Assembly (NCBI GenBank): GCA_016882305.1
Contig: VGQX01000018.1
Location: forward strand, 1 to 33,587
Direction: 5' to 3'
Length of the DNA: 33,587 nucleotides
Source: Cyanobacteria bacterium K_Offshore_surface_m2_239
Lineage (GTDB): Bacteria; Cyanobacteriota; Cyanobacteriia; PCC-6307; Cyanobiaceae
The notes below the pieces were generated by a model. That model did no database searches. It was not told where the DNA came from and was given only the letters and a program-made list of their open reading frames with translations. The position numbers were made by a program, and so were the translations under genes. Each line of letters starts with the position of its first letter. Within the stretch, counting starts at the first letter, position 1. Shown here piece by piece: positions 1,368 to 8,380 of the stretch.

Positions 1368-2066
1368 TCAGCCGTGGAGGCCCAGCCGCAGGGCCAGGGC
1401 CGCCGCCGCGTTCCGATCGGGCAGCTCCAGCTTCCGCAGGATGCGTTGCACGTGATCGCGAGCCGTCACCTCCGCCACCACGAGCCGCTCAGCGATCTGG
1501 CGGTTGGTGAGGCCCTCCACCACCAGGGCCAGCACATCCCGTTCCCGCTCGGTGAGGGGGGCGACGATGGCCTGCGCCTCCTGGATCCGTCGCTGGGCGT
1601 CCGGATCGAGATGGGCCTGGCCCTCCCGCAGGCGCTCCACCGCCCGCAACAGCCCTCCCTTCCCCACCATTCCCTCCCCGACGATCGCCACCCTCGGCGC
1701 GCCGAGCAACGCCATCAGGGGCAGAGGCGGGGCCTCCTCCTGCAGGAGCACCAGCAGGGACGGCGGATCCGGCCGACGCAGCCAGTCGGCCAGCAGGGGA
1801 ACGCAGTCGCCATCTCGGAGCCGGCTCGTGGTCGCCACGAGCACATCCGCGGCGGAGTCCGGCAACAGAGGCCGAAGGTCAGCGACCGTGGAGGCCATGC
1901 CCAGCAGTCGGGGAGGCAGGACCGCCGGGTCCTGGCTGAGCAGGTTGCTGCGCAGCATGGTGGTGTAGGCGGGAGAGGGGTTGCCCACCAGCAGCCGCAC
2001 GCCACTGAGCAAGCGACGGAGGGTGGCGTCGATTCGAGGAAAGTCGGCGGCCCCGGAATGGGTCAT
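1368..2066 (-). CDS. LuxR-family transcriptional regulator with degenerate receiver-like N-terminus
   Basis: 232 residues. The C-terminal ~65 residues are a classic LuxR/FixJ helix-turn-helix: LTERERDVLALVVEGLTN, then RQIAERLVVAEVTARDHVQ and RILRKL. The N-terminal ~140 residues look like an alternating strand/helix receiver fold (segments LLVGNPSP, VLVATTS, LLVLLQ, VAIVGEG) but lack an evident phosphoacceptor aspartate pocket. Phosphorylation-independent control is therefore likely (inference). The ATG at 2066 is preferred over an upstream in-frame start at 2150, which would overlap grrM. It starts 16 bp after the grrM stop, so it is probably co-transcribed with the grr cassette. The chitinase lies downstream on the same strand. 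Candidate targets are the grr operon and the chitinase. Confidence 0.85.
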   Translation of the reverse strand: MTHSGAADFPRIDATLRRLLSGVRLLVGNPSPAYTTMLRSNLLSQDPAVLPPRLLGMASTVADLRPLLPDSAADVLVATTSRLRDGDCVPLLADWLRRPDPPSLLVLLQEEAPPLPLMALLGAPRVAIVGEGMVGKGGLLRAVERLREGQAHLDPDAQRRIQEAQAIVAPLTERERDVLALVVEGLTNRQIAERLVVAEVTARDHVQRILRKLELPDRNAAAALALRLGLHG

Positions 2067-2082
2067 CGTTGGCGGGAAGGGA

Positions 2083-3315
2083 TCAGGGCCGCGACGGAAG
2101 CGGCGCCTCCGCCAAGCCCAGAGACCGCTCCAGACCGGAGAGCACCACATCGGCCACGACCTTCACACGCCAGCGACACGCCTGGGTTTCGCCGCAAGCC
2201 AGGGTCCCCGACTCCCAGTATTTGTTGCTGCCCGCGCCGCCTCCGCAGAGGGCGAAGTGTTCACAGGACTGGCGGCACATCTCCACACCAGCGGCCATGT
2301 CAGCGGCGATGCGTTGAAAGGCTGGCGTGGCCATCGCCTCCACCAGGGAATCCCGCCCCACCTGCCCCAGGAGGAAGTCGCCGTAGCGCTCGGTCCGCAC
2401 GCCCAGCAACTCCGGATCAAAGGTGGAGAAGCGCCCCTCGACATCCACGCTCAGGATCACGAAGGGTCGGTTCATGTCGGTGTGATCGACGCGGGCGCCA
2501 CCCGCCACCTGGCCGCAAAGGGTTTCGAATTCCCGCAGGCGCAGGGCGCCGGGATGCTGGGCGCAGAGCTGCCAGAAGCGCTCCAGGAAGGCGCGCCAAC
2601 GTCCCTCCAGCTCGGGCCGATCGAGGCTGGAGAGCGTGTTGGCGCCTTCCGTCTCCTCCATGTTGAAGCCCACGTCGCGGATGTCGTGCTCCAGGTAGAA
2701 GTCGAAGAGCGCGTCGGCGTGATCGAGGGAGGCGGCGGTGAGCACGGTGATCGCCTGAAACGGCAGGCCATGGCGCCGCAACTGGGCGATGCCCCGCATG
2801 GTGGCGGCGTGGCTGCCGAGACCGGTGCGGGTGCGACGGTGGGCGTCATGCAGAAACGCCGGACCATCCACGCTCACCCCCACCTGGATGGCATTGCGGG
2901 CAAAGCAGTCGCACCAGCGGTCATCGATCACCATGGCATTGGTCTGAATCGCCTGCTGGATGCGCAGATCGCCGCGGCCATGGCGCGCGAGGGCGGCGGC
3001 GATGCGATGGCTCGCCTCGTCATAGAAGGCGGGCGGCGCCATCAGGGGCTCGCCGGCATGCCACAGGAGCGTGAAATCTCCCGCCACGAAGGGGCTGCTC
3101 AGCACCGTGTCGAGGATCGGATCCAGCAGGGCCGGTTCTAGGCGGCGACGGTCGCGGCGATCGGGGAGATAGCAGTAGTCGCAGTCGAGATTGCAAAAGG
3201 GCGTGGCCTGGACCACCAGCAGGTCCAGGGGACCGGCGACATCCCCGGGCAGGGGACCGGCATCGTCCTCAGCGGCGGCCGCGGAAAGGGAAGGGGACAG
3301 CACCACGCGACTCAC
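2083..3315 (-). CDS. grrM: GrrM/OscB-type radical SAM/SPASM cyclophane-forming peptide maturase
   Basis: About 410 residues from the GTG at 3315. The radical SAM cluster motif is CNLDCDYC (Cys41, Cys45, Cys48), followed by the SAM-binding segment LLWHAGEPL. A C-terminal SPASM domain carries Cys at about 347, 351, 357, 374 and 380 for auxiliary iron-sulfur clusters. The family installs three-residue cyclophanes that link an aromatic ring to the beta carbon of a residue two positions on; its substrate here would be GrrA. The GTG start overlaps the grrA stop as GTGA, typical translational coupling. A start at 3375 is open but would overlap the grrA core by 64 bp, and its duplicated MGQLP N-terminus is simply grrA's repeats read in another frame. 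Identification rests on the SPASM cysteines together with the grrP-grrA context. Confidence 0.88.
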   Translation of the reverse strand: MSRVVLSPSLSAAAAEDDAGPLPGDVAGPLDLLVVQATPFCNLDCDYCYLPDRRDRRRLEPALLDPILDTVLSSPFVAGDFTLLWHAGEPLMAPPAFYDEASHRIAAALARHGRGDLRIQQAIQTNAMVIDDRWCDCFARNAIQVGVSVDGPAFLHDAHRRTRTGLGSHAATMRGIAQLRRHGLPFQAITVLTAASLDHADALFDFYLEHDIRDVGFNMEETEGANTLSSLDRPELEGRWRAFLERFWQLCAQHPGALRLREFETLCGQVAGGARVDHTDMNRPFVILSVDVEGRFSTFDPELLGVRTERYGDFLLGQVGRDSLVEAMATPAFQRIAADMAAGVEMCRQSCEHFALCGGGAGSNKYWESGTLACGETQACRWRVKVVADVVLSGLERSLGLAEAPLPSRP

Positions 3316-3785
3316 CAGTTGATGAAGCGGGGACCATTGCGGAAGTTGCCCCATCCGGGGCGGAAGTTGGCCCACACGGGAGGGCGGTAGACGGCGCCGC
3401 CATGGATCCGATTGGGCCAGGTGCGATTGGCCCAGCCGCGGTTGTTGCCGTTCAGCCAGGCCCCCGCCAGCAGCCAGGGCTCCCCCTCCTTCCGCCCGTC
3501 GGGCAGCCCGTCCGGCAGGCCAGCCTCCACCGCCCCGGCCCGCGCGCGGATCTCCTCCGAGAGGCGCCGCAGGCGGGCCTCCATGGCCTCCGCCGGGGAC
3601 GGCGCGGCGGCCTCCCCCCGGCCGGGGAGGGGCGGCGCCTCGGCGGCCGCAGGGGTGCTCGCCTCCGGTGGGTTGTCCGGAGGGGTGGCGGAGACGGCCG
3701 CCTCGGCCGGAGGGGCGGTTGAAAGCGCGAGGGAGGGCAGGGAGAGCAGGAAGGCCAGCAGGCCGGCGGAAGGGTTCGAAGGCAT
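3312..3785 (-). CDS. grrA: GrrA/OscA-type RiPP precursor with seven aromatic-X-Asn tripeptides
   Basis: 157 residues. Residues 1-30 are a signal peptide (hydrophobic LLAFLLSLPSLAL, then an Ala-rich cleavage region). Residues 31-100 form a Pro/Ala/Glu-rich leader. The C-terminal ~48 residues are a Gly/Asn/Trp-rich core. It contains WLN110-112, WAN118-120, WPN123-125, WAN138-140, WGN145-147, FRN148-150 and FIN154-156, the aromatic-X-Asn form that three-residue cyclophane synthases modify. The peptide ends on Trp157. It is encoded directly upstream of the maturase with a 4-bp overlap and 12 bp downstream of grrP. The mature product is presumably exported and cross-linked; its biological activity is not known to me. 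The number of rings actually formed is inference. Confidence 0.85.
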   Translation of the reverse strand: MPSNPSAGLLAFLLSLPSLALSTAPPAEAAVSATPPDNPPEASTPAAAEAPPLPGRGEAAAPSPAEAMEARLRRLSEEIRARAGAVEAGLPDGLPDGRKEGEPWLLAGAWLNGNNRGWANRTWPNRIHGGAVYRPPVWANFRPGWGNFRNGPRFINW

Positions 3786-3797
3786 GGCAGCAGACGA

Positions 3798-4847
3798 TCA
3801 GGGGCGGGTGGAGGCCGCTGGCGCGGCGGGAGCGGGAGCAACGGAGGCCGGAGCGGCGGGAGCGGGGGCGGTCGCCCCCGGGGCCAGCCGTTCATGGGTG
3901 AGCAGCACGGCCTCGAAGTAAGCGCGCACCATGTCGCTCGGCAGCTGCACGATCCCCTGGGGACCAAACCAACGGTTCACGGCCGCCACCGAAGCCGGCT
4001 CGTCATCCAGGTAGCCCTGGAGCATGCCGATGATGGCCAGATTCGCCAGGTTGCGGAAGGTGGAGTTGTTCTCCGGCACGATGCAGCCCACCGCGTAGCG
4101 GCCATAGGCCTCCCGCGGCACCAGCTCGTAGGCCTGAGCGGTCTTGAACTGCTTGGCGTAGGGGGCGAGCGCCCCCGCCAGCAGGATCGAATCCCCCGCC
4201 ATGCCATCCAGGCGCCCCTGGATCACCTGGGCCACGCCCGTCTCCAGATCCTTCTGGGGCACGCGCACGGCGGCCGGCTGCAGCGTTCGGATCGTCGCCT
4301 CCCCCAGCGAGCCGGGAATCACGCCGATGCGCTTGCCCACCAGGGCCTGGGGCGTGGCCTGCACGCCTCCCTTGGTGAGCAGGCGAATGCCCGAGAGGCT
4401 GAAGGGCACGCTGTAGTCGACCACCATCTCCTGCTGCCAGGTGAAGGGGAGGCCACAGGCCAGGTCGACATCGCCGCGACTCACCATTTGGTAGAGCGCG
4501 TCCGTGGTGTCCACGGGTCGGAACTCAAGCCGCACCGGCTTTTCGAGGTAGCGCGACACCTCTGCGGCGATGCGTTGCGCCACATCCACCGACACCCCCA
4601 CCAACTGCTGCTGGCCATCGACGTAGGCGTAGGGGATCAGGTTGGTGCGCGTGCCGATGGTGATCACTCCCGTGCGGGCGGCGCGCTCCACCACGGTTTC
4701 CGCCCGGGCGGCGGGGGCTGCCGCCAGCAGGGCGCCCGCCACCAGGCCCAGGGCCGCCCACCAGGGCTTGCTCCGGCGGCGACGGGCGACGGGCGACGGG
4801 ATGGCGGGGTCCAGCGAGGGCTGGTGGGGCGCGGCGGGCTGAGGCAA
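3798..4847 (-). CDS. grrP: GrrP: periplasmic substrate-binding-like protein of the GRRM cassette
   Basis: 349 residues. A basic run (RRRR, residues 22-25) precedes a hydrophobic segment WWAALGLVAGALLAAAP and a cleavage-like ARAE. The body is a type II amino-acid-binding-protein fold: TGVITIGTRTNLIPYAYVD, then VSVDVAQRIAAEV and GDVDLACGLPFTW. The tail is Ala/Pro-rich low complexity. GrrP proteins are solute-binding-like orphans with no ABC permease beside them, found next to grrA and grrM. A role in sensing or carrying the peptide is a guess. First gene of the minus-strand cassette, 12 bp before grrA. The ATG at 4847 gives an unusually long n-region; a GTG just before RRRR is an alternative start. 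Confidence 0.85.
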   Translation of the reverse strand: MPQPAAPHQPSLDPAIPSPVARRRRSKPWWAALGLVAGALLAAAPAARAETVVERAARTGVITIGTRTNLIPYAYVDGQQQLVGVSVDVAQRIAAEVSRYLEKPVRLEFRPVDTTDALYQMVSRGDVDLACGLPFTWQQEMVVDYSVPFSLSGIRLLTKGGVQATPQALVGKRIGVIPGSLGEATIRTLQPAAVRVPQKDLETGVAQVIQGRLDGMAGDSILLAGALAPYAKQFKTAQAYELVPREAYGRYAVGCIVPENNSTFRNLANLAIIGMLQGYLDDEPASVAAVNRWFGPQGIVQLPSDMVRAYFEAVLLTHERLAPGATAPAPAAPASVAPAPAAPAASTRP

Positions 4848-4987: not shown

Positions 4988-6367
4988 ATGCCCGCCGCCG
5001 CCCCCCTCACCTTTCTGCCCCCCCGCCTGGATGGGCGGGTGTTGACGCTCAGCCGCTGGTTGCTGCCCCTCTGGCTGCGCCACCAGAGCCAGCTGACGCG
5101 GCTCACGGTGCGCCATGCCGAGCGCCTGCTGGAGGCCATGGAGCGCTTTCAGGCGGGAGAGGCGCGCCTGCTGATCGCCTTCCGCCACCCGAGCGTGGAT
5201 GATCCGGCCGCCATGGCCCATCTGTTCTGGAAGGCCCTGCCGCGGGAGGCCCGGCGACGGGGGGTGCGGCTGCGGCCCTCGCCCCATGCCCAGTTCCTCT
5301 ACGACCGGGGGATTCCGCTGTGGGCCGGCCCGCGGGTGGGCTGGCTGCTCTCCCGCCTCGGGGGCTGCTCGATCCAGCGGGGCAAGCTGGACGCCCCAGC
5401 CCTGCGCACCGCCCGCCAACTGCTGTTGGAGGGTCCCCATCCGTTGGCGGTGGCGCCGGAGGGCGCCACCAACGGCCACAACGAGCTCGTCAGCCCCCTG
5501 GAGCCCGGCGTGGCGCAGCTGGCGTTCTGGACGGCGGAGGACCTGCGCAAGGCCGGCCGCCCCGAGCGGATGGTGATCGCGCCGGTGGGGTTGCAATACA
5601 GCTTCAGCCAGCCGGTGTGGCCCGCCATCGACAGCCTGTTGCGCCAGCTGGAGCGGGAGGCGGGCCTGGACAGCGCTCCCGACCCCGATCCGAGCGAGGA
5701 GGCGCTCTACGAAAGGCTGCTCGCCCTGGCAGAGCGCATGCTCACCCTGATGGAGACGTTTTATCGGGACGCCTACCATCGCCCCCTGCCCGTGGCCGGC
5801 CCGCTCCCGGCGGGGGACGCGGGGCAGGCGGCCCTGGGCGACCGGTTGGGGCGGTTGCTGGAGACGGCCCTGGAGGTGGTGGAGAGCTCCTTCGGGCTGC
5901 CGGCCCGAGGGGAACTGGGCAGCCGTTGCCGCCGGTTGGAGCAGGCCGGCTGGGAGCGCATCCATCCGCCGGGCGGCAACGGCGTCCGGCGCTCCGCCCT
6001 GGAGAGGGGCCTGGCGGACCGGCTGGCGGAGGAAACGGAGCGGCGCCTCTGGCACATGCGCCTGGTGGAGGCCTTTGTGGCGGTGAGCGGCGGCTACGTG
6101 CGGGAGCGCCCCAGCCAGGAGCGCTTCGCCGACACCCTGCTGCTGCTGTGGGACACCCAGTGCCGCCTGCTCGGCGGCACCCCCGTGGACCGCCCCCGCC
6201 TGGGCCCGCGGCAGGCGTGGATCACGATCGACACCCCCATCGCCGTGGAGGAGCGCCTGGAGGCCTATCGGGCGGACCGGAAGCGGGCGGTGGCCGACCT
6301 GACCGCTGAACTGCAGCACCGCCTGCAGGGCCTGATCCTGCCCACCGATCTGTCAGCACCGGAGTGA
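4988..6367 (+). CDS. PlsC-like lysophospholipid acyltransferase family protein
   Basis: 459 residues. The N-terminal ~240 residues carry acyltransferase motifs: HPSVDD, an HX4D catalytic motif at His67/Asp72; LYDRGIPLWAG near residues 100-115; and VAPEGATNG near 155-165, matching the glycerophosphate-binding xPEGTxS motif. Family members transfer fatty acyl groups to lysophosphatidate or related acceptors at the membrane. The C-terminal ~210 residues are helical and Glu/Arg-rich with no motif I recognise. The ATG at 4988 has a good GGAGGG Shine-Dalgarno directly upstream. Transcribed away from the grr cassette. The substrate cannot be told from sequence. Confidence 0.75.
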   Translation: MPAAAPLTFLPPRLDGRVLTLSRWLLPLWLRHQSQLTRLTVRHAERLLEAMERFQAGEARLLIAFRHPSVDDPAAMAHLFWKALPREARRRGVRLRPSPHAQFLYDRGIPLWAGPRVGWLLSRLGGCSIQRGKLDAPALRTARQLLLEGPHPLAVAPEGATNGHNELVSPLEPGVAQLAFWTAEDLRKAGRPERMVIAPVGLQYSFSQPVWPAIDSLLRQLEREAGLDSAPDPDPSEEALYERLLALAERMLTLMETFYRDAYHRPLPVAGPLPAGDAGQAALGDRLGRLLETALEVVESSFGLPARGELGSRCRRLEQAGWERIHPPGGNGVRRSALERGLADRLAEETERRLWHMRLVEAFVAVSGGYVRERPSQERFADTLLLLWDTQCRLLGGTPVDRPRLGPRQAWITIDTPIAVEERLEAYRADRKRAVADLTAELQHRLQGLILPTDLSAPE

Positions 6368-6446: not shown

Positions 6447-7766
6447 TCAGCCGCTGGAACTTGGGACCACCAGACCATGGGAGCGGAAGCCGTCGCGCAG
6501 GAAGGTGGCTAAAGGGGCAGGGTTGGAAAGACTGAAATGGGGCGAGGTATCAACGAAGAGGAGATTGCCATCCAAGGTTGGAAAACAAGAATCTTTCTCG
6601 CAAAGCAAAGGCAGCGGATCGAGATATGCAATTCGGGAATTATCCCTAGCAAAATTCTGCAAGATTTTTGATAAAGGAGCTCGATTGGCCAATATCAACG
6701 ACTTTGAAACGCGACAGCCTCGCCCTCCTGTCAAGAGAAAACTTCGTTTGAAATCTTCTTCAGAGCATGTGTGAGGGATGTCATCCATCAACACGATGGC
6801 CGCGATCCTGGGCAATGCATCGTTGCTCAACTGTTGGATCTGATTTTGGACGCCGAGGAATCCCTCCTTCGTTTCTGGAACACGACGAGAATAAACGATG
6901 ACATCCTTGGGTTGAAGATTCTGGATAAACCGTTGATAAACCTGGCTATTGTTCCAGAAATTGGCCGCAGCGATGGTGTCTTTCGTATGAAATGGGTGAG
7001 CCATTGCATTGGTGAGATAGCGCACACCAGCGAAACTGGTCTGCACCGCTGCCGACTGCACACTGGGGACAAGGTTGCTGGCATGGCTATCCCCAAGGAC
7101 AAAGACGTAGGGTTCCTTATTGGAGCGATCGAGACAGGTACTCCACTGGCTGCGATCCAGCTTGATGCTCATCAACTCACAGGGCATTTTGGATTGAACA
7201 TAGACAAAGTCCTCAGCCTTAAACTTTCCAAGATACATTTTGCTCCCGAGACCTTTGCCGATCCCCACGAGCAAAACAGCCGCCAGAATCAAAGCCATGA
7301 TCCCTATGGCAATGCAGTGCACATCACGAAGGGATGGCCTGGGCTTTCGGAAGGGGACCTCAATGAATCGATAAGAGAATACGGAGAGAACTACAATCAA
7401 AAGACACTGAAAGGGGATGGTCCACCAATGAATACCGATTGACAGGCGGCTGAGGGCAATCACACCCCAGTGCCAGAGATACAATGAATAGGAAATCAAA
7501 CCAATCCACACCAATCTTTGGTTCGTGAGCAAGCCGTAGGCCCAGGTCCGTTCGCGCAGGGCCAGGAGAAGGATCAGCGTTGCCAGAACAGCCGCGATCG
7601 TCGCCGGCACCGCAAAGGCAACGGGCAAAAAAAAAGCAAGCCCAAGCACAACCATGCTGATCGTCACCGCGATGGCGGGAATTGATTTATCTCTACCCCA
7701 GCCAAGACGCGCCCAGACGAGAAAAAGCAAACAGCCAGCGCCCATCTCCCAGAATCGAGATGGCAT
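6447..7766 (-). CDS. C-terminal half of a frameshifted OafA/YrhL-type acyltransferase, with SGNH domain
   Basis: 439 residues from an ATG that overlaps the stop of the N-terminal half (TGATG). It starts in the middle of the family's eighth transmembrane region (MPSRFWEMGAG, equivalent to the usual TRAWELLLGA). It continues through the last membrane helices (YSLYLWHWGVIAL, RFIEVPFRK) and ends in an SGNH esterase-like domain with GDSHASN (nucleophile Ser) and a terminal DTSPHFS (catalytic Asp/His). Such proteins O-acetylate surface polysaccharide or peptidoglycan. As a separate polypeptide it lacks the N-terminal catalytic half. Base composition is visibly more AT-rich than the flanking genes, suggesting acquired DNA. 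Confidence 0.75.
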   Translation of the reverse strand: MPSRFWEMGAGCLLFLVWARLGWGRDKSIPAIAVTISMVVLGLAFFLPVAFAVPATIAAVLATLILLLALRERTWAYGLLTNQRLVWIGLISYSLYLWHWGVIALSRLSIGIHWWTIPFQCLLIVVLSVFSYRFIEVPFRKPRPSLRDVHCIAIGIMALILAAVLLVGIGKGLGSKMYLGKFKAEDFVYVQSKMPCELMSIKLDRSQWSTCLDRSNKEPYVFVLGDSHASNLVPSVQSAAVQTSFAGVRYLTNAMAHPFHTKDTIAAANFWNNSQVYQRFIQNLQPKDVIVYSRRVPETKEGFLGVQNQIQQLSNDALPRIAAIVLMDDIPHTCSEEDFKRSFLLTGGRGCRVSKSLILANRAPLSKILQNFARDNSRIAYLDPLPLLCEKDSCFPTLDGNLLFVDTSPHFSLSNPAPLATFLRDGFRSHGLVVPSSSG

Positions 7767-8380
7767 CAGGAAGTAAGCAGCCGCATGATTTTAGTGTATA
7801 AGAAGATAAATAGTCCCAGCGAGACAAGCGACAGGATACTGATGAACACCGCCAGGTTGCGCGTGCCTCGCGCCGAGGAATGCGGAAATCCAGTAGCAAG
7901 CAAGAGGAAGGGGAAGATGAAATAAAATTGTTCCTCCACCCCAAGAGACCACGTATGCGTGTAAGGATTGGGTTTTGCCGATTCCGAAAAGTATTGCACC
8001 GCATCCCGATAAAGCTGGATATTGGAAAGCCCAAAAAGAGCTCGGCGCCCGATGCCAAGCGTAACGCCTGGATCTGGAACCAGGAAGCAAATAACAATGG
8101 CAATGCTGACAATGAAGAGCAAAAGCGCAGGCAACAGGCGACGAACTCTCCTGGCATAAAAGCCAAAAAACATCTCGCCAAAAGAGCTGTTTGGCCGGCT
8201 GGCCAGCGAGGCCATGATGACGAAACCGGAAATAACGAAGAAAACATCGACACCTAGATATCCACGAGGCAATAGTTTATCGTTGAAGTGATTAACAATT
8301 ACCGCCAGCACTGCAACGCCTCTCATCCCATCAATTTCGGGCCGATGCCCCATCCGCAGCGGGGCGGTCCATTTCGTCAT
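7766..8380 (-). CDS. N-terminal half of the frameshifted OafA/YrhL-type acyltransferase
   Basis: 204 residues. It begins MTKWTAPLRM, then HRPEIDGMRGVAVLAVIVNHF, the hallmark acyltransferase-3 start, followed by GYLGVDVFFVISGFVI, RRVRRLLPALLL and THTWSLGVEEQFYFIFP. The frame breaks after LFIFLYTK: the next residues IMRLLTS and a stop are out of frame. Inserting one A in the AAAA run restores TKNHAAAYFLMPSRFW and joins it to the downstream half. Either a true one-base deletion (pseudogene), a phase-variable or slippage-expressed gene, or a sequencing error. Together the two halves would give a normal ~640-residue OafA/SGNH protein. Confidence 0.78.
   Translation of the reverse strand: MTKWTAPLRMGHRPEIDGMRGVAVLAVIVNHFNDKLLPRGYLGVDVFFVISGFVIMASLASRPNSSFGEMFFGFYARRVRRLLPALLLFIVSIAIVICFLVPDPGVTLGIGRRALFGLSNIQLYRDAVQYFSESAKPNPYTHTWSLGVEEQFYFIFPFLLLATGFPHSSARGTRNLAVFISILSLVSLGLFIFLYTKIMRLLTS
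7789..7792 (-). other. Probable frameshift position (A4 run) inside the acyltransferase gene
   Basis: On the coding strand ACT AAA ATC becomes ACT AAA AAT CAT if one A is added, which fuses the two reading frames exactly at a conserved point of the family. Four As is a short run for strong slippage, so a fixed mutation or a read error is at least as likely. Confidence 0.65.

Follow-up and report, generated by a model that had tools for sequence, protein, structure and literature searches.

A complete grrP-grrA-grrM cluster with a glycine-poor, irregular precursor core in a cyanobacterium of the family Cyanobiaceae

The closest described relatives of the gene cluster reported here are the triceptides of the GrrA/OscA1 and GrrM/OscB type (TIGR04260, TIGR04261 and TIGR04262), with which it has in common the gene set, the leader helix, the tripeptides, the maturase family and a GrrP that appears to be an orphan. 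For OscB (Nguyen et al. 2020), the available excerpt of PMC11002830 reports that C7 of tryptophan is joined to the beta carbon of an asparagine or aspartate two residues on, and C4 of phenylalanine to the beta carbon of an asparagine two residues on. Residues of these kinds, as the earlier note on this DNA had pointed out, are present in the window, i.e., the whole stretch of 33,587 nucleotides that was analysed (contig VGQX01000018.1 of Cyanobacteria bacterium K_Offshore_surface_m2_239). The comparison with OscB covers these residue kinds together with the shared NCBIfam name GrrM/OscB.

Unlike the GrrA/OscA1 triceptides, the precursor of the window has a core that is poor in glycine (fraction 0.146), irregular and dominated by tryptophan, with five Trp and two Phe sites. 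In a scan of named genomes for GrrM, the top two rows were Synechococcus sp. CCY 9618 and Cyanobium sp. CACIAM 14 (L144 and L145; both clusters are of type II, as described below), whose maturases are 64% and 66% identical to that of the window in the best segment and lie in the same P-A-M gene order, whereas their cores are glycine-rich series of F-x-N with a YYGG segment. The window GrrM (P0002) reaches 550 bits against TIGR04261 (cut-off 310) and retains the radical SAM motif CxxxCxxC. Profiles of further radical SAM maturases that form cyclophanes, among them AmcB, FxsB, YhhB and XyeB, match it as well, but with scores far under their curated cut-offs (AmcB, 279 of 425 bits).

The window contains a complete cluster in which grrP, grrA and grrM follow each other in this order, all encoded by the minus strand (Table 1), and genes, order and families were all established by computation. 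The grrA start codon lies 12 bp past the grrP stop, and the GTG that we take as the start of grrM overlaps the grrA stop (GTGA); the mechanically listed open reading frame of grrM starts at 3375. GrrP scores 256.8 bits against TIGR04262 (cut-off 190). GrrA reaches 30.9 bits as a protein against TIGR04260, 0.1 bit under the cut-off of 31, and 34.1 bits in the whole-genome search. These family matches bear out the earlier description of a GrrA-type precursor beside a GrrM/OscB-type maturase. The two flanking frames were considered as conserved cluster members and rejected: in the first locus set the LuxR-type frame was matched once, distantly, in L042 (34%), the acyltransferase-like frame nowhere outside the window, and across loci L144 to L292 neither had a match except the window's own.

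Table 1. Positions of the grr genes, precursor segments and flanking frames in the window
Feature	Position	Strand	Remarks
grrP	3798..4847	-	First gene of cluster; 349 aa from TTG as mechanically listed, start provisional
grrA precursor	3312..3785	-	157 aa; ATG at 3785, stop 3314-3312
Hydrophobic export-type N-terminus of GrrA, residues 1-30	3696..3785	-	By hydropathy
Leader helix of GrrA MEARLRRLSEEIRAR, residues 68-82	3540..3584	-	By motif pattern
Core of GrrA, residues 110-157	3315..3458	-	48 aa, W110-W157
Site 1, WLN, W110-N112	3450..3458	-	Aligned W/F-x-N in 27/28 type II relatives
Site 2, WAN, W118-N120	3426..3434	-	Aligned W/F-x-N in 28/28 type II relatives
Site 3, WPN, W123-N125	3411..3419	-	0/28 aligned in type II relatives
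Site 4, WAN, W138-N140	3366..3374	-	0/28 aligned in type II relatives
Site 5, WGN, W145-N147	3345..3353	-	0/28 aligned; abuts site 6, no spacer
Site 6, FRN, F148-N150	3336..3344	-	25/28 aligned in type II relatives
Site 7, FIN, F154-N156, then C-terminal Trp	3318..3326	-	27/28 aligned in type II relatives
grrM, radical SAM maturase	2083..3315	-	410 aa; GTG start at 3315 inferred from sequence
LuxR-type regulator frame, just downstream of grrM	1368-2150	-	PF00196
Acyltransferase-like frame, upstream of cluster	4988-6367

Within the known RiPP family to which it belongs, the locus is somewhat divergent. We are largely confident that it represents a complete cluster of the GrrA/GrrM (OscA/OscB) triceptide family with an irregular, type II precursor that would acquire up to seven cyclophanes, be exported and have GrrP as its partner. 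According to this proposal, GrrM would be translated right after GrrA by translational coupling, dock on the leader helix of the precursor and join the ring of each Trp or Phe to the beta carbon of the asparagine two residues on. The product would carry up to seven three-residue cyclophanes, with 14.1 Da lost if all of them form. The stapled peptide would then leave the cytoplasm by way of its hydrophobic N-terminus and could meet the solute-binding-type GrrP outside the inner membrane.

Both leader features of TIGR04260, a hydrophobic N-terminus and, by pattern, a helix with the motif E-x-R-[LI], are present in the window GrrA. The former consists of 11 residues with a mean hydropathy of 2.2, in agreement with the exported peptide proposed earlier; 169 of the 180 leaders examined contain a stretch of at least 1.8. 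No basic residue precedes it in the window sequence, which is unusual for a Sec signal. Cleavage near PPAEA-AVS is possible. The helix motif was found by pattern matching in 169 of 183 leaders in a loose form and in 142 of 183 in a stricter one, and residues 68-82 are the probable recognition element for the maturase. Translation of the DNA confirms the seven tripeptides that had been read in a core of about 48 residues, at exactly the coordinates given and on the minus strand, which had been left unstated: between W110 and W157 there are exactly seven [WF]-x-N tripeptides, WLN, WAN, WPN, WAN, WGN, FRN and FIN. Aromatic-x-Asn tripeptides are more frequent in the core than expected by chance, since 200,000 shuffles gave a mean of 1.65 sites and seven or more in three cases, with a slight bias in favor of the core, which had been cut at its own first site.

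How ordinary such a core is was judged against the family. The fetched loci yielded 186 distinct GrrA C-termini, of which the 183 with at least three sites were compared; two of the three that were dropped are cut by contig ends. In the later loci, matches to the GrrA profile below 30 bits were dropped with the exception of L192, kept by hand at 19.8 bits, and the set is free of GrrAs in open frames of more than 330 residues, one of which (L189) was spotted by eye. Because these sequences stem from related genomes, and some are almost identical, the counts are not independent. The register of the asparagine is fixed throughout: at two residues after W or F it was found in 1512 of 1647 cases, with aspartate in 78 and another residue in 57, while at six of seven other offsets its share is at most 12.1%; the 41% at -3 result from the five-residue repeat. 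The number of W/F-x-N sites per core has a median of 9 and a range of 2-17; 112 cores exceed seven, 33 including that of the window equal it and 38 fall below. As many as 162 of the 183 cores contain both Trp and Phe sites, and OscB is reported to act on both residues in the excerpt of PMC11002830. The number of sites and the Trp/Phe mixture, which the earlier note had singled out as deserving characterization, are therefore ordinary, and neither can be upheld as unusual.

The window core is unusual in other respects, namely its low glycine content, its irregular spacing and the spacer-less WGNFRN. Its glycine fraction is the lowest of the 183, the next lowest being 0.165 and the median 0.38. 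The glycine-rich repeats after which the TIGR04260 family was formerly named are thus missing here; we regard glycine richness as descriptive rather than defining, because the crosslink as reported in the excerpt of PMC11002830 involves only an aromatic residue and Asn or Asp. The sites are spaced by 8, 5, 15, 7, 3 and 6 residues, the commonest spacing in the family being 5. Abutting pairs of W/F-x-N amount to six, in four of the 183 cores. W-P-N occurs in 15 cores including that of the window, and proline holds the middle position in 15 of 1512 sites. A contig labelled Candidatus Eremiobacterota (L192:1-1554, GC 0.62) encodes a GrrM together with the GrrA core that has the most sites among the 183, an irregular one with 17 of the W/F-x-N/D kind; transfer or mis-binning could account for it.

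Two types of cluster can be told apart. Type I precursors, encoded in many clusters of this cyanobacterial family, have regular repeats resembling GGFRNGGWGN, and their maturases form one clade (SH-aLRT 98). Many of these clusters lie between nadC, seen upstream in 42 loci, and argS, seen downstream in 31; the two genes were recognized by eye in a neighborhood clustering in which antisense and shifted frames prevailed, and are the only ones used from it. Type II precursors have irregular cores, often with a YYGG segment, and their GrrMs form a grade around the type I clade; irregular cores were likewise seen in less closely related cyanobacteria. The GrrM of the window falls outside the type I clade and stands beside two type II GrrMs (SH-aLRT 86; quick search, no bootstrap). 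In an earlier FastTree calculation without those two sequences it was placed next to L043/L044 with a support of 0.70. Its GrrP groups with the type II GrrPs of five congeners (0.983; 57-60% identity). The window cluster is thus of type II, with a nearest neighbor that is unsteady and differs between the two GrrM trees and the GrrP tree, and the idea that its grrM is the type I gene of the congeners is rejected by both GrrM trees. The genome of the window carries argS with no grr gene in the approximately 2.3 kb present upstream of it, and its nadC runs off the contig; a further, type I cluster at that place is unlikely, the genome having a single GrrM match.

Alignment with 28 type II cores divides the seven sites. 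Conservation among homologs, which the earlier note had named as a test, is evident for WLN, the first WAN, FRN and FIN (25-28 of 28) and absent for WPN, the second WAN and WGN (0 of 28), which fall in a gap-filled, unalignable middle part; the YYGG segment of the type II relatives is missing. The three middle sites may be unused. The main alternative to our proposal follows this split: rings would form only at the four conserved sites, and the Trp-rich middle would be a diverged linker that has kept the motif by descent or chance. The four-to-three division itself, the rarity of WGN abutting FRN without a spacer and the uncommon proline in the middle position all favor this view. However, aromatic residues lacking Asn or Asp two residues on are so rare (57 of 1647 across the family) that the asparagines at all three middle sites suggest that these are used, and with three of 200,000 shuffles reaching seven sites, chance alone is unlikely. 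We regard a four-ring product as possible, if doubtful.

The proposal of a functional type II cluster with up to seven rings has also to be weighed against decay. The window GrrM has a long end branch (0.68), and among 94 columns that are more than 97% conserved in 86 other GrrMs it departs at two; in one of these an alanine replaces the glycine present in all 86 others, two residues before a conserved C-terminal cysteine. Together with the glycine-poorest core, the long branch and the Ala-for-Gly exchange make relaxed selection possible. On this basis the gene might be a copy that is losing its function, which would account for low glycine and long branches alike and would suit the low GrrA score as well. 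Against this stand three intact and closely packed frames, the 92 columns that GrrM keeps, and a GrrP that retains both invariant cysteines along with R155 and D219. Moreover, this grrM gave the single match in the whole genome, and 41 of 42 genomes of the genus carry one over the cut-off. Decay therefore appears improbable. That GrrA is a surface protein rich in Gly, Asn and aromatic residues, without any relation to RiPPs and merely located beside a radical SAM gene, is hardly credible: its hydrophobic N-terminus, low complexity and lack of an assigned function would fit, but grrP, grrA and grrM all have family matches, the +2 register of Asn holds across 183 cores and the reported chemistry of OscB (excerpt of PMC11002830) speaks against it.

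The genome to which the window belongs (contig C18) comprises 3.5 Mb and is 95.6% complete. A class I aldolase on the same contig is 85% and 77% identical to its counterparts in two congeners and 85-86% to those in two other genera (81 genomes), which suggests that the contig fits the family and leaves the genus unfixed. Two abutting frames at 6447-8380 on the minus strand have a third-position GC of 0.56-0.58 compared with about 0.9 nearby. They resemble what we take to be a single membrane acyltransferase of the OafA type split in two frames, a gene that is probably foreign and possibly broken. Low-complexity frames of Pro-Val repeats (VPVPVPVP) occupy positions 63-1052 of the plus strand. 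GrrM over the cut-off was found in 78 of 201 family genomes and 54 of 386 phylum genomes (overlapping draws), and a GrrP match in all 42 genomes of the genus. When 251 genomes of the family were searched for GrrA, no congener gave a match. Viral contigs gave one weak partial match (24% identity), and in phage records nothing matched GrrA at E 1e-5; GrrM matches occur in 128 plasmid records, all below 60% identity and the best among the matches listed at 38.2%, and the one Streptomyces plasmid region examined has no annotated GrrA. In the open-licence literature searched, no statement on what GrrA or GrrP does came up; on the OscB chemistry, the excerpts of PMC10885120 offer citations only and those of PMC8326336 nothing.

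GrrP matches SBP_bac_3 (PF00497), and its predicted model (mean pLDDT 91.5) finds its best solved matches in Glu/Asp-binding and other amino-acid-binding proteins, such that profile and predicted fold agree on a type 3 solute-binding protein. Among the neighbors scanned (grrA, grrM, the LuxR-type and the acyltransferase-like frame) there is no ABC permease or ATPase. Cysteines 131 and 255 are present in 131 of 131 aligned rows, R155 in 129, D219 in 120 and R67 in 14. In an alignment with the Glu/Asp-binding protein 2ia4/2vha, R155 and D219 fall at the presumed contacts to the alpha-carboxylate and alpha-amino groups, and R67 at a presumed contact with the side chain.

Family-wide, the presence of grrP follows that of grrA and not that of grrM. 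Among the 94 loci in which grrM is flanked by 2.5 kb or more on each side, both genes were found in 80 and neither in 14, and in no case was one found alone. The scan of named genomes, in part overlapping with the genomes behind this count, gave both in 55 of 60 loci (out of 80), grrP only in one, grrA only in two and neither in two; the grrP-only locus, L189, contains a grrA on inspection. The loci without a detected grrA or grrP are L063, L083, L119, L121, L123-L126, L130-L132, L134, L135 and L137. In L134, a GrrA-like frame missed by the GrrA profile precedes grrM (3359-3820 of the grrM-oriented strand); it ends in the sites W-E-D, W-I-N, F-N-D, W-S-D and F-S-N and could be an Asp-rich variant. 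Pairs of grrP and grrA are doubled in 11 tandem clusters of the genus, in L201 and in L050, the first grrA frame of the last lacking the start of the leader. A strict pairing is contradicted by 17 loci (6 and 11 in the two sets) that hold two or three grrA genes per grrP.

The tandem clusters (L065, L071, L079, L090, L093 and L268-L273), carried by 11 of the genus's 42 genomes, have the order grrP-grrA (type II), grrP-grrA (type I) and a single grrM. The ten of their GrrMs that were placed in the tree all belong to the type I clade. Whole-genome searches revealed one GrrM over the cut-off in each of the 11 genomes and no type II GrrM among the matches. Matches below the cut-off reached 65.6 bits in G198 and 20.8 bits in G545, and an extra match in G113 is a contig-end scrap identical over 32 residues to its own type I GrrM. 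In G132, a fragment of a second GrrM (L300:336-1028) is 77% identical to the resident type I GrrM and lacks the N-terminal part; it may be a remnant or an assembly piece. G562 differs in encoding two full-length GrrMs, which lie next to a type II and a type I grrA, respectively. Since each of the 11 tandem genomes has one GrrM over the cut-off, a single maturase probably processes two unlike cores there, and such sharing would fit recognition through the leader.

A more far-reaching reading is that GrrA is an exported ligand matched to GrrP as its receptor or carrier and that the two diversify as a unit, served in several pairs by a promiscuous maturase, with the core of the window as a diverged ligand and GrrP, despite its build as an amino-acid-binding protein, recognizing the stapled peptide or a terminus of it. 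In view of the 17 loci with surplus grrA and of L134, we consider this unlikely. The tandem clusters and the coupling of grrP with grrA are nevertheless the part most worth following. They narrow the role of GrrA, in that grrP accompanies grrA and two precursor types, each with its GrrP, precede a single grrM, and they make two claims testable, namely that GrrM recognizes its substrate by the leader and not by the core, and that GrrP is the functional partner of GrrA. Such tests could draw on the window, whose core has less glycine than any other in the comparison.
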